Assembly (NCBI RefSeq): GCF_003797185.1
Contig: NZ_RKMH01000006.1
Coordinates: 1 to 64,000, forward strand
Source: Gordonia oryzae
GTDB lineage: Bacteria; Actinomycetota; Actinomycetes; Mycobacteriales; Mycobacteriaceae
Direction of reading: 5' to 3'
DNA length: 64,000 nt
Within the stretch, counting starts at the first letter, position 1, and each line of letters opens with the position of its first letter. A program made the translations under genes and the position numbers. A model generated the notes under the pieces. The model saw nothing but the letters and a program-made list of their open reading frames with translations, was not told where the DNA came from and did no database searches. Positions 52,126 through 57,581 of the stretch are shown piece after piece.

Positions 52126-53037
52126 CTAGAAGCCCATGCGGCGCAACTGCTTTGGATCGCGCTGCCAGTCTTTGGCCACCTTCACGTGCAGGTCGAGGTA
52201 CACCTTCACACCCAGGAGTGCCTCGATCTGACGGCGCGCCGTAGTGCCCACCGCCTTGAGACGGGACCCCTTATGGCCGATGATGATGCCCTTCTGGCTG
52301 TCACGCTCGACGTAGAGGATCGCGTGAACATCGACCATCGGCGCTTGCTCCGGTGCCCGATCCTCGCGCGGGATGATCTCCTCGATGACCACCGCCAACG
52401 AGTGCGGCAACTCATCGTGCACTCCCTCGAGTGCGGCCTCACGGATGAACTCGGCCATCAGGACCTGTTCGGGCTCGTCGGTGAGTTCTCCGTCGGGATA
52501 GAATGCCGGGCCGTGCTCCATCAGCGACACCAGCACCTCGGTCAACACGTCGATCTGCTCACCCGAGGTCGCCGAGACGGGCACCACTTCCGATGTGGGT
52601 CCGAGCAATTCGGAGAGGGCGAGCAGCTGGGCGGCGACCTGCTCGGGACCGACGCGATCGATCTTGGTGACGATGCCGAGCACCGTGGTCCCCGGCGCCA
52701 TCTGCCGGACCTGCGAGACAATCCACCGGTCACCCGGACCGATCCGCTCGTCGGCCGGGATGCAGACACCGATGACGTCGACCTCGGAGTAGGTGTCGCG
52801 AACCAGATCGTTGAGTCGCTGACCGAGCAGCGTCCGCGGCCGGTGCAGCCCTGGGGTGTCGACAAGGATCAGCTGAGCGTCGGGCCGATTCACGATTCCG
52901 CGGATGGTGTGGCGGGTGGTCTGCGGCCGATTGGAGGTGATCGCGATCTTCTCGCCCACCAGCGCATTGGTCAAAGTCGACTTGCCGGTGTTCGGACGGC
53001 CGACAAAGCACACGAAACCCGAACGGAATTCGGTCAT
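52126..53037 (-). CDS. era: GTPase Era, 16S rRNA-binding
   Basis: Era binds 16S rRNA and helps mature the small ribosomal subunit. The 303-residue product has GTPase motifs GRPNTGKST (G1), DTPGLH (G3) and TKID (G4), then a KH RNA-binding domain with IIGHKGSRLKAVGTTARR near 245. It is the last gene of the phoH-ybeY-hlyC/corC-cdd-era chain and overlaps the preceding gene by four bases. Confidence 0.95.
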   Translation of the reverse strand: MTEFRSGFVCFVGRPNTGKSTLTNALVGEKIAITSNRPQTTRHTIRGIVNRPDAQLILVDTPGLHRPRTLLGQRLNDLVRDTYSEVDVIGVCIPADERIGPGDRWIVSQVRQMAPGTTVLGIVTKIDRVGPEQVAAQLLALSELLGPTSEVVPVSATSGEQIDVLTEVLVSLMEHGPAFYPDGELTDEPEQVLMAEFIREAALEGVHDELPHSLAVVIEEIIPREDRAPEQAPMVDVHAILYVERDSQKGIIIGHKGSRLKAVGTTARRQIEALLGVKVYLDLHVKVAKDWQRDPKQLRRMGF

Positions 53038-53393
53038 GAAGCCGCGTCCGCCCCGGCACCGGCCCGGATGCGGTCGAGCACGGTGCCCGCGGCATCGGCG
53101 ACCACCAGCAGTGCGTCCGGGCTGATCTCGGCGAGTGTCGCGCGGCCCGGGTCATCGGCGCCACCGCCGACGATCACCGCGGCCTCGAACGACTCGGCAC
53201 CACTCGACAGTGCGGTGACCACTGCGACCTGTAGTGCCGACAGTTCCAACGAGGCGGTACGCACGTCGGCACCGGCATAGGTTCGGCCATCTCCCTCGCG
53301 CACCGCAGCGCCCGACGGCGACTGCGCCCGGCCGCGCGCGCCGCGGGCGAGAGTCACCAGCTTGGCGTCTTCGTCACCCAATGGCTCGCTCAC
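53034..53393 (-). CDS. degenerate cytidine-deaminase-like protein (Rv2365c-like)
   Basis: A 119-residue protein in the position of Rv2365c. The order of strands and helices resembles cytidine deaminase ([35 protein letters not shown]), where TY.G..V.. is the substrate-binding start. However, the zinc ligands (H/C-A-E and PCxxC) are missing: [10 protein letters not shown] replaces the HAE-like motif, and no cysteine occurs. It is therefore unlikely to deaminate cytidine. It is held in a tightly overlapping operon, so it likely has another role, perhaps partnering Era or YbeY. Confidence 0.7.
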
Positions 53394-54811
53394 ATGGTCT
53401 CCTTCTCCTGGGCGTCCCGGCGCTCAGCGTATTCGCCGTTGCGTCGAGAGCGTTCCCCGCCCCGTGAGCCGCCACGCCGGCTCGGCGCGTCGTTGCGCTC
53501 TTCCTCTCGGGCATCGAGCGGATCCCGCTCGGACTCGGGCCCCTCGATCTGCTCGACGAGCACGGTTGTGATGCGCTGGCGACCTTGCCGATTCGGCCTG
53601 CCCTCGGCCACCAGTTGCAGGCCGTGGCTCGCGACACGAGCCCCCGGCAGCGGGACCCGGCCGAGTTCGAGGCCGACGAGACCGCCGACGGTTTCGACCT
53701 CGTCGTCGTCGATGTCGATGTCGAACAGTTCACCGAGGTCTTCCACCGGTAGTCGCGCCGAGACGCGGTAGCGACCGTCGCCGAGATCTTCCACGGGGGC
53801 GACCTCACCGGTGTCGTACTCGTCGGTGATCTCCCCTACGATCTCCTCGAGGACGTCCTCGATGGTGACGAGCCCGGCGATGCCGCCGTATTCATCGACG
53901 AGCAACGCCATGTGGTTGTGGGTACGCCGCATGTCCTCCAGAACCCGGTCCAGCGGCTTGGAGTCGGGTATGAATTCCGCCGGGCGCATCACCGCCGAAA
54001 CGCTCACCATGCGGGCGTCCTCGCCGTGCATCGAGCGCTCTACGAGATCCTTCAGATACACCACCCCGAGAATGTCGTCGGGATTCTCCCCGATCACCGG
54101 GATACGCGAATGCCCGCTGCGCACAGCCAAACTCGTTGCCTGCGCGGCGCTCTTGTCACTCTCGATCCAGATCATCTCCGGTCGCGGCACCATCACCTCG
54201 CGGGCGTTGGTGTCGCCGAGTTCGAAGACCGACTGGATCATGCGGCGCTCATCTGCGGCCACCACCCCGCTCGCCTCGGCGAGGTCGACAACCTCCCGCA
54301 ACTCGACCTCGGTGGCGAACGGCCCGTTGCGGTATCCCTTGCCCGGCGTCACCGCGTTTCCGATGAGGATGAGTAGCCGGGTCAGCGGGGTGAGGATCAC
54401 GCCCAGGATCTGCAGGGCAGCGGCCGAGGCCAGGGCGATGGTGTAGGCGTGCTGACGACCGAGCGTGCGCGGTCCGACCCCGGCAGCCACATATGACACC
54501 ACCGCCATCCCGGCGATGGCGACGGTCAGTCCCCATTCGACGCCCAGTTCGGACACGGCGATCACCGCGACCATCGCGACGGCAGCGGTCTCACACACCA
54601 CCCGCAGCAACACCGCGAGACCGACATAGGTCGCGCGAGCGGCGAGCACCCGCATGAGCCGCACCGCACCCGCGCGCTTTTCCTTGACCATGTCCTCGAC
54701 GCGGGCAATCGACACCGTCGACACCGCGGTGTCCACCGCAGCGAACACACCACTGAGGACGACGAGGACGACGGCGCACAGCACGAACCACGAATAGCCG
54801 GCCCCGGTCAC
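53390..54811 (-). CDS. HlyC/CorC-family transporter-like protein (CNNM/CBS)
   Basis: A membrane protein of the magnesium/cobalt-efflux related family. Residues 1-190 form a DUF21/CNNM transmembrane domain with three to four helices. Residues about 195-330 are two CBS domains ([44 protein letters not shown]), and 345-425 is a CorC_HlyC domain. A basic, disordered tail ends the protein. It lies between ybeY and the deaminase-like gene, each junction overlapping by four bases, as in Rv2366c. Confidence 0.88.
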
Positions 54812-55410
54812 TGCTCCGACGAGCCCGCGGGCCGCTGCTGCGCGGAGCCCTCGTCACCTCCCGGGAACTCGGGGAACGCGGAGTCGGTGAACCCGATGTT
54901 GGTCAGCAGACGGGTGTCCCGGTCGGCTTGACGTTGCTGCTGGGCCTGCCGGTGCCGCTGCGAATAGAACTCCTCGAGCAGACGGTTCTGCAGGCCGAAC
55001 ATCTCCTTCTCCTCCTCAGGTTCTGCGTGGTCGTAGCCGAGCAGATGCAGGACGCCGTGGATGGTGAGCATCGCCAGTTCGTGCTCGAGTGAGCGCCGGG
55101 CCTCGCGGGCCTGTGTGGCGGCGAATTGGGGGCAGAGAACGATATCGCCGAGGATGGCAGGGCCCGGCTCGGCGGCATCGGGTCGCCCGCCGGGCACCAA
55201 CTCGTCCATCGGGAAGCTCATCACGTCGGTGGGACCGGGTAGATCCATCCATTGCACATGCATGTCGGCCATTGTCGGCTCGTCCACACAGAGCACCGAG
55301 AGCTCGGCCCCGGGATGAACGTCCATCGCCTCGGTCGCGAATCGTGCTGCGGCGAGCACTAATTCGGCGGGGACGTCCACGCCGGACTCGTTGGCGAATT
55401 CGATGCTCAT
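54808..55410 (-). CDS. ybeY: endoribonuclease YbeY
   Basis: YbeY is a zinc metalloendonuclease needed for rRNA maturation and ribosome quality control. The 200-residue product has the zinc motif [11 protein letters not shown] (H3xH5xH type) near 119-129 and DVMSFPMDE near 64. A glutamine-rich C-terminal extension (about 150-200) is longer than in most homologues. It overlaps phoH upstream and the HlyC/CorC gene downstream by four bases each. Confidence 0.93.
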
Positions 55411-57581
55411 GAGCGTCGTCCCTGACTTGCCGAGCGCCGCGCGGCGCGATTGGGGCCACCGATACGATCCGAGTCACGCAGTCGCGGGTTGTCCCGCGCC
55501 GCCTCCTCGGCCCGCCCATAGGCGTCGACGATGTCGGCGACGAGCCGGTGCCGGACCACGTCCTGACTGGTCAGGGTGGCGAAGTGGATGTCATCGATGC
55601 CGTCGAGGATGCGGGCGGCGGCCATCAGTCCGCTCTGCGCTCCGCCGGGCAGATCGACCTGCGTGGTGTCGCCGGTGACCACCACCTTCGACCCGAATCC
55701 CAGCCGGGTCAGGAACATCTTCATCTGCTCGCCGGTGGTGTTCTGCGCCTCGTCGAGGATGATGAAGGCGTCATTGAGCGTGTTGTGGGTCAGCAGGAAG
55801 TCCTCGGTGACATAGAGCGAATCCTCCGCCGCCACACGGATGCAGACGGCTTCGTCGGTACCCACCGATTCGATGCTTTCGATGTAGCGCTTGGGCGCTG
55901 TGACCGTGGTCGCGCCAAATTTCTGCGCCTTGCCTGTCATCCGGAACGGAGCGAGCCCGTCCGGGAGACGAATGTCGAGGACGTGGGCGTCAGGTCGGGC
56001 CAATACCTCTCGACCCGGCGCTCTACCCGAGGGCATTCTCCGCGCGACGTGGGTTCGTCCGTAAACGACACCGCCCAGCGATCGCACCAGGAACATCACG
56101 TCATCGCGCAGCTGGTCCGACACTGTCACATACTGCACACGGCAGGACCGGCCGGTCTGGGTCACTGCGCCACTATCAGTGTCCAGAAGACCCTGCAGCA
56201 CTGCCAATCGGACGTCGGACGAGTTGAGAAGATACTGCTTCGGTACGAACGTCGTAGAGGACGTGGTGCCCCACAATCCGAGTTCGCGCATGGCGTGGGT
56301 GACCGCGTTCTCGATCGTGACCGGCTCGCCGGGAGTGGCGATCCGGTCGAGGACGTAGTCGACGTCGGATCGCTGTCGTGCGCGAACACCCGGCACGGCC
56401 ATGACCAGCGCATCGACCAGCGCACGGTCGGCTGTCGTCAACGATGGCGTGGTCATCCCCTCTATGCAGCCGTCACCCAGGATCAGACCGAGCGCATAGG
56501 GGTCGAGCGGATGCGGTTGACGAGGAAACTCCGCAGCGCCACTCAAGAGCGGTAACTCGAATCGGTGATAGTGAGCCGCCCGGAGATTTCCGATCATCTC
56601 CTTCGTCTCGAGCACCCTCGGGCCGGTGCCGCGACGACGGTCGTCTGGCGTGTACACCGACCACAGGTGGTCGGTGGAGCAGAGGGTGGACGCACCGTCG
56701 GCAGTGGTGACTCGCACGATGTCCTTGAACCCCTGCGGGTAGACGCCAAGGACTTCGGTCGGCGTGCCGTTCGAGGCGATGACGTGATCGCCGACCTCGA
56801 TGTCACCGATCGGACGGAAGCCCTGTGGCGTGAGGACCCTGGTCGACACCGGCTGCGCCCGGCCACGCATATACGCCAGTGGCGCCACTTCGATCACCCC
56901 GGCGGCCATGAGCTTGGGGATCGACTCGGGGTCCATCATGTCGTGCAACGCGTCGTAGAGCGGTCGCAGATACGGGTCGATCTTCTCGCTGAGTGTTCCG
57001 GGCAGAAAGCCCAGTCGCTCACCGGCTTCCACCGCGGGTCTGGTGAGAATGATGCGGTTCACGCTCTTGGATTGCAGTGCCTGCACGGCCTTGGCCATCG
57101 CCAGATAGGTCTTGCCGGTACCGGCCGGGCCCAGACCGAACACGATGGTGTTGGCGTCGATGGCATCGACGTAACGCTTCTGGTTGAGGGTCTTGGGCCG
57201 GATGGTCTTGCCGCGGCGCGAGAGGATGTCGAGGGACAGGACATCGGCGGGCGATTCGGTGGCACCCTCGGACAGCATCGACACGCCCTGGCGGACGAGA
57301 TCTGGGGTCAGCGTGGTGCCGCGACCGACGAGGTCCGCGAGTTCACCCATGACGCGCTCGGCGGCGGCGACGTCGGCGCCACGGCCACGAAGCGTGATCT
57401 GATTGCCGCGCACGTGGATATCGGCCGGGAGGAGTTGCTCAAGCGTGCGCAGATTGACATCGCTGGTGCCGAGCAGCCCGAACACCACCTCGGGAGGGAC
57501 ATCGATGATGGAGGTGACCACAGGTCCGGCCCCTGCGGCGCCGCGCGCCGGCGCACGACCGTCGGGGTTGTCGTCACTCAC
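55407..57581 (-). CDS. phoH: PhoH-like ATPase interrupted by an intein
   Basis: PhoH is a P-loop ATPase often linked to RNA metabolism and encoded with ybeY and era. The host protein is about 365 residues when the intein (residues 242-600) is removed: an N-terminal KH-like region with QITLRGRG, Walker [13 protein letters not shown] near 150, [15 protein letters not shown], and, after the intein, [11 protein letters not shown] (Walker B) and [15 protein letters not shown]. The whole 724-codon frame is intact, so splicing must restore the active site. It is the first gene of the phoH-ybeY-hlyC/corC-cdd-like-era operon. Confidence 0.93.
55782..56858 (-). other. intein in PhoH, class 3-like with LAGLIDADG endonuclease
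   Basis: A 359-residue insertion between PLAYMRGR and TLNDAF, a conserved site just before Walker B. It begins with alanine rather than cysteine or serine. Trp66 in TDHLW (block B), Cys339 in AVCIRV (block F), Thr357 before HN at the end (block G) and a Thr at position +1 match the W-C-T signature of class 3 inteins, which splice without a residue-1 nucleophile. Two LAGLIDADG blocks (LGLILGDG with Asp129; LLDTDS with Asp226 or Asp228) indicate a full homing endonuclease. Insertion into the ATPase core fits a selfish element. Confidence 0.9.

Follow-up and report, generated by a model that had tools for sequence, protein, structure and literature searches.

An intein with a class 3 signature in PhoH of Gordonia oryzae, and the loss of detectable purifying selection on its endonuclease

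The phoH gene in the window, which is the whole stretch of 64,000 nucleotides of Gordonia oryzae DNA that was analysed, is interrupted by a long in-frame insert. The first-pass annotation had described this insert as a class 3-type intein with an intact homing endonuclease. The locus thus raises the question whether the insert is such an intein, and in what state its splicing domain and its endonuclease are found.

The insert in phoH and its splicing residues

The phoH gene (55407..57581, minus strand, stop included) reads through 724 codons from a GTG start with the intein in frame, and codes for a PhoH1-type ATPase (PF02562, 3.3e-89). The Pfam match to PF02562 was split into two pieces, one on either side of the insert. 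The N-extein of 241 codons (56859..57581, minus strand) ends with MRGR, the intein occupies 359 stop-free codons (55782..56858, minus strand), and the C-extein of 124 codons plus stop (55407..55781, minus strand) starts with TLND and includes DEAQN, which we take to be the Walker B region. The junctions are MRGR/AQPV on the N side and LLTHN/TLND on the C side, with Thr at +1. Translation confirmed the annotated details: the 359-residue insert between MRGR and TLND, residues A1, W66, C339, T357 and N359 with the +1 Thr, and Asp129, Asp226 and Asp228 in two LAGLIDADG blocks.

Twenty-nine congeneric phoH loci had no insert at that point. MRGR was followed directly by TLND in 27 of them, by TIND in one and by TLSD in one; at one insert-free locus (G014) a run of N stood a few codons past the junction. 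These uninterrupted junctions indicated that the segment is an insert and not a normal PhoH domain, which was the outcome of the presence/absence comparison proposed in the annotation.

The genes around the insert are ordinary in order: hrcA, dnaJ, rsmE (RNA methyltransferase), an alpha/beta hydrolase gene, phoH, ybeY, a corC-like gene, a frame of 119 aa and era, the usual actinobacterial arrangement from hrcA to era. A 4-base overlap joins ybeY (54808..55410, minus strand) to the phoH stop, and another of 4 bases joins it to the gene of the corC-like CNNM/CBS protein (53390..54811, minus strand); the era GTPase gene lies at 52126..53037 (minus strand). The 119-aa frame between the corC-like gene and era had no Pfam match at E 1e-5, no mobile-element genes were seen among the listed neighbours from hrcA to era, and a sigma-70 promoter/terminator scan of the phoH region gave no match. 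Elsewhere in the genome, a second PhoH-like match (G000:C22:240419-240763, 34% identity over query 132-242) is probably PhoH2.

For comparison, an alignment was first built from 33 inteins, and loci L033 to L257 were then collected. From these 225 loci, 211 inteins were extracted; the 14 dropped were 11 empty-site loci and 3 viral ones with a cut or unresolved end. The PhoH site accounted for 134 of the extracted loci, which gave 113 distinct sequences, the window excluded.

The residues that define class 3 were found in the window intein. Residue 1 is Ala and offers no nucleophile; W66, C339 and T357 stand for Trp B:12, Cys F:4 and Thr G:5; H64 is the His of B:10, and H358 and N359 form the His-Asn end. 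These block numbers were assigned to the PhoH intein by us, partly by alignment. His64-Leu65-Trp66 of block B lies at 56661..56669, Cys339, the predicted first nucleophile, at 55842..55844, and Thr357-His358-Asn359, the end of block G, at 55782..55790 (all minus strand). All 113 PhoH-site inteins kept H64, W66, C339, T357, H358 and N359, supporting the annotation of a class 3-type intein in PhoH. D226 and D228 were likewise kept in all 113. Residue 1 was Ala in 104, Ser in 8 and Cys in 1. The window intein has cysteines at 60, 131, 239 and 339 only.

Hint models of Pfam matched the intein only below their cut-offs; the Hint domain was supported by matches to solved Hint structures. The profile of the 33 inteins matched the class 3 DnaB inteins 6rix, 6riy and 6bs8, the WCT-engineered gp41-1 intein 6riz and the endonuclease domain of PI-SceI. 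The W-C-T columns of the PhoH inteins lined up with those of 6riz in the profile alignment, as the annotation had asked of its own assignment. Judged from its sequence, the PhoH insert is an intein carrying the class 3 signature. According to the consulted part of PMC5222942, splicing of three class 3 mini-inteins stops when any one of Cys F:4, His B:10 and Trp B:12 is replaced, and a further experimental basis of class 3 chemistry is given in the consulted part of PMC7664689.

Nine PhoH-site inteins combined another first residue with a full W-C-T triad: Cys1 in L137, and Ser1 in L095, L099, L105, L106, L121, L126, L130 and L257. They may be naturally occurring inteins in which either of two residues could serve as the first nucleophile.

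Occupancy, mobility and phage relatives

Within Gordonia, the insert was present in 8 and absent in 29 of 37 genomes in a first survey that counted the window genome, and a genus-wide search found an intein match in 14 of 59 genomes. All 14 insert-bearing loci had MRGR, the insert and TLND, so that MRGR then TLND surrounded the site in 41 of 43 Gordonia loci, the remaining two having TIND and TLSD. The intein was 359 aa long in nine carriers, 357 aa in one and shortened in four (319, 308, 289 and 261 aa). At least 4 changes were needed to explain presence and absence on a 43-row tree of PhoH exteins, a count that does not separate gain from loss; the empty locus of G027 was sister to the intein-bearing G362 with support 100/96. 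The states seen in the genus are an empty site, a full-length intein, early decay (the window), partial deletion and a near-mini-intein. A single genus thus covers the whole intein life cycle at one class 3 site, with every stage in a genome that can be retrieved. Such a series could be used to measure the pace of endonuclease decay once the intein is fixed, and to see whether splicing is altered in parallel.

Beyond the genus, 59 of 397 genomes of the order matched the intein at E 1e-20 and 18 of 396 genomes of the phylum at E 1e-30; both counts include matches of about 30-41% identity, which probably lie in other genes. MRGR was found in the PhoH flanks at all 29 loci fetched from the order search. 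In a collection of named genomes, relatives were encoded by 490 of the 546 stretches that matched, and among the best 80 of the 490, MRGR preceded the insert in 80 of 80, followed by TLN-, TLS- or TIN-. Mycobacterium copies among these best 80 occupied the same MRGR site. By these flanks, and by their single branch in a quick tree of 73 rows, the PhoH-site inteins at MRGR share site and descent. The annotation had called the insert notable for sitting in a cellular ATPase; this was overstated, as class 3 PhoH inteins are in print and the site is occupied throughout the best 80 of the 490.

Two contigs among the PhoH loci had unexpected labels. L062, from a metagenome-assembled genome labelled Maritimibacter sp. 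NAT7, had PhoH and intein at zero protein distance from L096 of Gordonia tangerina and is most likely a misbinned contig. L136, filed under Candidatus Omnitrophota, had a PhoH intein with actinobacterial-like flanks and reflects either a real transfer or misbinning.

Synonymous divergence between the window genome (G000) and its near kin G028 was 0.15 in the extein, 0.14 in the Hint part and 0.13 in the endonuclease. The similar divergence of extein and intein indicated that the window intein was inherited with its gene since that split. A different history was seen elsewhere in the family. The intein of G445 clustered with those of G444 and G447 (100/99), and its PhoH clustered with that of G036 and G031 (81/89 in a 14-row tree, 96/88 in a 43-row tree). 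The intein data rejected the extein grouping (AU p 9.5e-10 with G025, 7.1e-6 without), whereas rejection of the intein grouping by the extein data was marginal (p 0.036). The groups tested were named post hoc, after the trees had been seen. By this one conflicting tree placement, the intein has moved elsewhere in the family, and the G445 copy is read as a transfer. No co-converted flank tract was found around the transferred copy, where only scattered sites were seen.

Intein and extein distances correlated with r 0.72 over 77 named loci, namely the 79 of 80 that could be extracted minus 2 shortened copies. Among the 15 most deviating pairs listed, two pairs that were not near copies had the intein closer than the extein: Actinoallomurus L121 and Streptomyces L127 (extein distance 0.237, intein 0.152) and Rhodococcus L064 and L066 (0.143 and 0.128). 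The discrepancy of L121 and L127 may be read as a between-family transfer.

Tori and Perler reportedly treated class 3 inteins and phage origin in 2011, and a phage link was also drawn in the annotation. Matches were found in 779 phage records, all below 60% identity and with a top of 38% among the best 30 of the 779. An alignment-based scan found 79 viral contigs with relatives of up to 42% identity; the same scan with the single intein sequence as query found zero. The insert was preceded by GK in 63 of these 79 relatives, with T after it in 57 of the 63, and by RGR in none; a PhoH DEAQN downstream of the insert was found in none of the 79. As to the phage link, the best-ranked relatives in phage and viral contigs are about 38-42% identical, and by the flanks read none of the 79 viral-contig relatives lies in PhoH. 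In a quick tree of 73 rows, a single branch (SH-aLRT 100) set the 20 PhoH inteins apart, and they stood among viral class 3-type inteins. This fits an old acquisition of the PhoH inteins from phage-type inteins, which is unproven.

The sole PhoH label among the best 30 of the 779 records belonged to phage GX15bay, whose annotated PhoH gene (L238 1029-3851, MK557849.1) carries a class 3-type intein. Pfam found no PhoH domain in it at E 1e-5, so the label probably derives from the intein, and the phage was rejected as a donor. Phage-host kinship has been reported for DnaB-b and TerL inteins in the portion of PMC5050341 consulted, and the word PhoH is absent from that text.

Constraint on the endonuclease and the Hint domain

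The LAGLIDADG endonuclease domain covers residues about 112-316 (55911..56525, minus strand; PF14528, profile match to PI-SceI). Both motifs, with catalytic Asp D129 and D228, aligned to the motifs of PI-SceI: motif 1 is LGLILGDG with Asp129 (56469..56492, minus strand), and motif 2 is LQGLLDTDS with Asp226 and Asp228 kept and the last Gly replaced by Ser229 (56172..56198, minus strand). The frame is open, with no stop, no deletion and both catalytic Asp retained.

The substitutions on the window branch told a different story from this open frame. This rate comparison concerns a single branch with 41 changes: of those in the endonuclease (residues 112-316), 28 were nonsynonymous and 13 synonymous, against a neutral expectation of 70% nonsynonymous from a simple simulation (binomial p 0.74). 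On the same branch the extein had 6 nonsynonymous and 21 synonymous changes (Fisher p 4e-4 vs the endonuclease), and Hint had 7 and 11 (p 0.046 vs the endonuclease). The sister side of the endonuclease had 2 nonsynonymous and 8 synonymous changes. With stricter polarisation, 20 amino-acid changes were counted over 205 endonuclease residues vs 4 over 145 Hint residues, and the former were spread over both halves of the domain (9 and 11).

The same was seen with a custom-written codon model for nine full-length taxa, with the topology, extein included, fixed from the intein tree. Endonuclease omega was 0.66 on the window branch vs a background of 0.054 (likelihood ratio 47.8, p 4.7e-12) and was indistinguishable from 1 (p 0.48), simple counts giving 0.9. 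The Hint omega on the window branch, 0.089, did not differ from its background of 0.039 (p 0.15) and lay below 1 (p 9e-4). The extein had 0.038 vs 0.023 (p 0.33), again below 1 (p 0.003). As a control, G445 and G031 were added and each of the nine other full-length branches was given its own omega, which was 0.001 to 0.18 in eight of nine. The very short G447 branch reached a boundary omega of 20 (p 0.0055), so the contrast with the window is not perfectly clean. Omega was raised in G444 (0.18, p 0.02) and below background in G362 (0.025, p 0.037). The window genome had 0.63 (p 1e-11) in this run, and G031, whose endonuclease is visibly damaged, had 0.39 (p 2.4e-8).

Near-invariant columns, conserved in at least 95% of copies, numbered 65 in the endonuclease and 61 in Hint. 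The window departed from the endonuclease columns at 8, vs 0-4 in 106 other full-length copies; the shortened copies departed at 10 (G031), 10 (G024), 8 (G432) and 2 (G002). In Hint the window departed at 2 (G28A and Q53A), inside the family range of 0-5, residue 28 being Gly in all 113 other PhoH-site inteins. Gly229 at the end of motif 2 is Ser in the window; the only copies among the 113 with a replacement there were L088 (347 aa), G432 (308 aa) and G024 (261 aa).

D129 was retained in 105 of the 113, and five of the eight exceptions were full-length. At residue 129, L034, L035, L079, L107 and L123 have H, G, E, H and N. These five copies indicated that point decay without deletion occurs also outside Gordonia.

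We concluded that the window endonuclease lost detectable purifying selection on its own lineage, with Hint still constrained. Two features expected of an active endonuclease, purifying selection on the domain and the motif Gly, were not seen in the window copy: omega did not differ from 1, and G229S is present. The term "intact" in the annotation was too strong for a domain that retains its full length and its catalytic Asp, with purifying selection undetectable and the motif Gly lost. Acidic residues as a sign of a working endonuclease proved insufficient alone beside an omega of 0.66 and 8 departures at 65 columns. This corrects a common shortcut, in which an open frame with catalytic Asp is taken for an active homing endonuclease. 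The window endonuclease was apparently freed of selection recently and is probably weak or dead; residual cutting is possible, with both Asp kept and no stop or deletion.

The open frame and both catalytic Asp would also suit an active endonuclease that is adapting to a changed target, its fast amino-acid change being selected and not a sign of decay. Shifting DNA specificity can likewise bring omega near 1, and an omega of about 0.66 (0.9 by simple counts) alone is not enough to tell decay from a mixture of positive and purifying selection. The target, however, lies in a conserved part of PhoH, with MRGR then TLND at those 41 of 43 Gordonia loci, and the conserved positions were changed across both halves of the domain, the last Gly of motif 2 included. 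We regard such adaptation as unlikely.

Proposed explanation and comparison with known systems

We consider it very probable that the window holds the Gordonia copy of an actinobacterial class 3 PhoH intein allele, with the endonuclease decaying and the splicing domain kept. The observations behind this are the anatomy, the residue invariance, the empty sites, the constraint pattern and the one conflicting tree placement. By analogy with known class 3 inteins, Cys339 would attack the N-junction, an Arg-Ala bond; the N-extein would then be passed on to Thr+1, and Asn359 would cyclise, aided by His358. The product would be an uninterrupted PhoH of 365 residues. With the insert lying a short way ahead of the Walker B region, PhoH would presumably be inactive until spliced. 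The pattern suggests a mobile family, in which the LAGLIDADG homing endonuclease would cut empty phoH alleles, and a window lineage in which the endonuclease was recently released from selection, with loss of homing. We propose that the splicing domain was kept because PhoH depends on it.

A constrained Hint next to an unconstrained endonuclease might also be expected if the intein were kept as a conditional switch of PhoH, for example as a redox trap between Cys60, four residues ahead of His64, and Cys339. Cys48-Cys118 of M. smegmatis DnaBi1 is a precedent, as described in the part of PMC6195587 at hand. However, Cys60 is poorly conserved (48 Cys, 63 Ala and 2 Ser of 113), the constraint on Hint is expected anyway if PhoH is useful, and the intein is patchily present, in those 14 of 59 genomes of the genus. 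A switch therefore appears improbable. It would be equally surprising if the intein were domesticated, its mobility discarded and its splicing turned into a post-translational PhoH gate, maybe redox-controlled via Cys60 and Cys339, with the nine Ser1/Cys1 inteins running class 1 and class 3 first steps as a companion case. If that were true, these nine, with both first steps, would be natural bridging forms.

A class 1 or class 2 mechanism of splicing, with W-C-T incidental, might be suspected from Ser or Cys at residue 1 in 9 of the 113 relatives. Ala1 of the window, however, excludes class 1, and none of the 113 departs from Cys339, Trp66 or His64; corresponding replacements abolish splicing in three mini-inteins (PMC5222942, part consulted). 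The chance of such a mechanism is slight. The reading as a normal PhoH domain or an accident of annotation, for which nothing was found, is ruled out by the 29 insert-free congeneric loci, with the Hint and LAGLIDADG similarity also against it, and its probability is close to nil.

The explanation we prefer, a class 3 intein with a decaying endonuclease, can be set against several known systems. PI-SceI, the yeast VMA intein, which we take to be a class 1 intein, has an endonuclease domain that could be aligned to profile positions 120-279, both Asp motifs included. The aligned motif 2 of PI-SceI is GLIDSDG, the last Gly of which is Ser in the window copy. Class 3-type inteins of mycobacteriophages and other phages, in helicase and terminase, are likewise full-length with an endonuclease and reach 38% over the whole length (among the best 30 of 779), but, by the flanks of the 79 viral-contig relatives, occupy insertion sites other than MRGR of PhoH.

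The mycobacterial DnaB class 3 mini-inteins (M. smegmatis DnaBi1, 6bs8; 6rix and 6riy) share W-C-T, the block B His and the His-Asn end with the window intein. Unlike it, they are inserted in DnaB and have no endonuclease, and the profile similarity (E 2.4e-7 to 1e-6) was confined to the N-terminal Hint part. Their class 3 mechanism is experimentally established according to the consulted parts of PMC5222942 and PMC6195587. DnaB of the window's own genome carries a second class 3-type intein of 276 aa (L002 703-3003; G000:C25, about 178861) with the motifs GVGK/ALSL ... HEW ... VRCV ... PTHN/S. Pfam found no LAGLIDADG match in it at E 1e-5, and like mycobacterial DnaBi1 it is shorter and without such a match.

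The closest systems are the mycobacterial PhoH inteins. Titles and abstract openings of the literature on inteins and Gordonia named no Gordonia PhoH intein. Kelley et al. reported in 2018 that PhoH carries a class 3 intein in M. fortuitum (OBK00716) and in M. xenopi (EID13626) (PMC6195587, as far as seen), and the consulted part of PMC7360933 mentions an intein in PhoH of M. smegmatis. The window intein is a further case of these PhoH class 3 inteins, already in print at least in the passages seen of PMC6195587 and PMC7360933. It shares with them the host protein family and, according to the consulted text of the 2018 authors, class 3 membership by W-C-T (PMC6195587). It differs in genus, the identity of the insertion site in the published copies being our reading, and the relaxed endonuclease belongs to the window copy.
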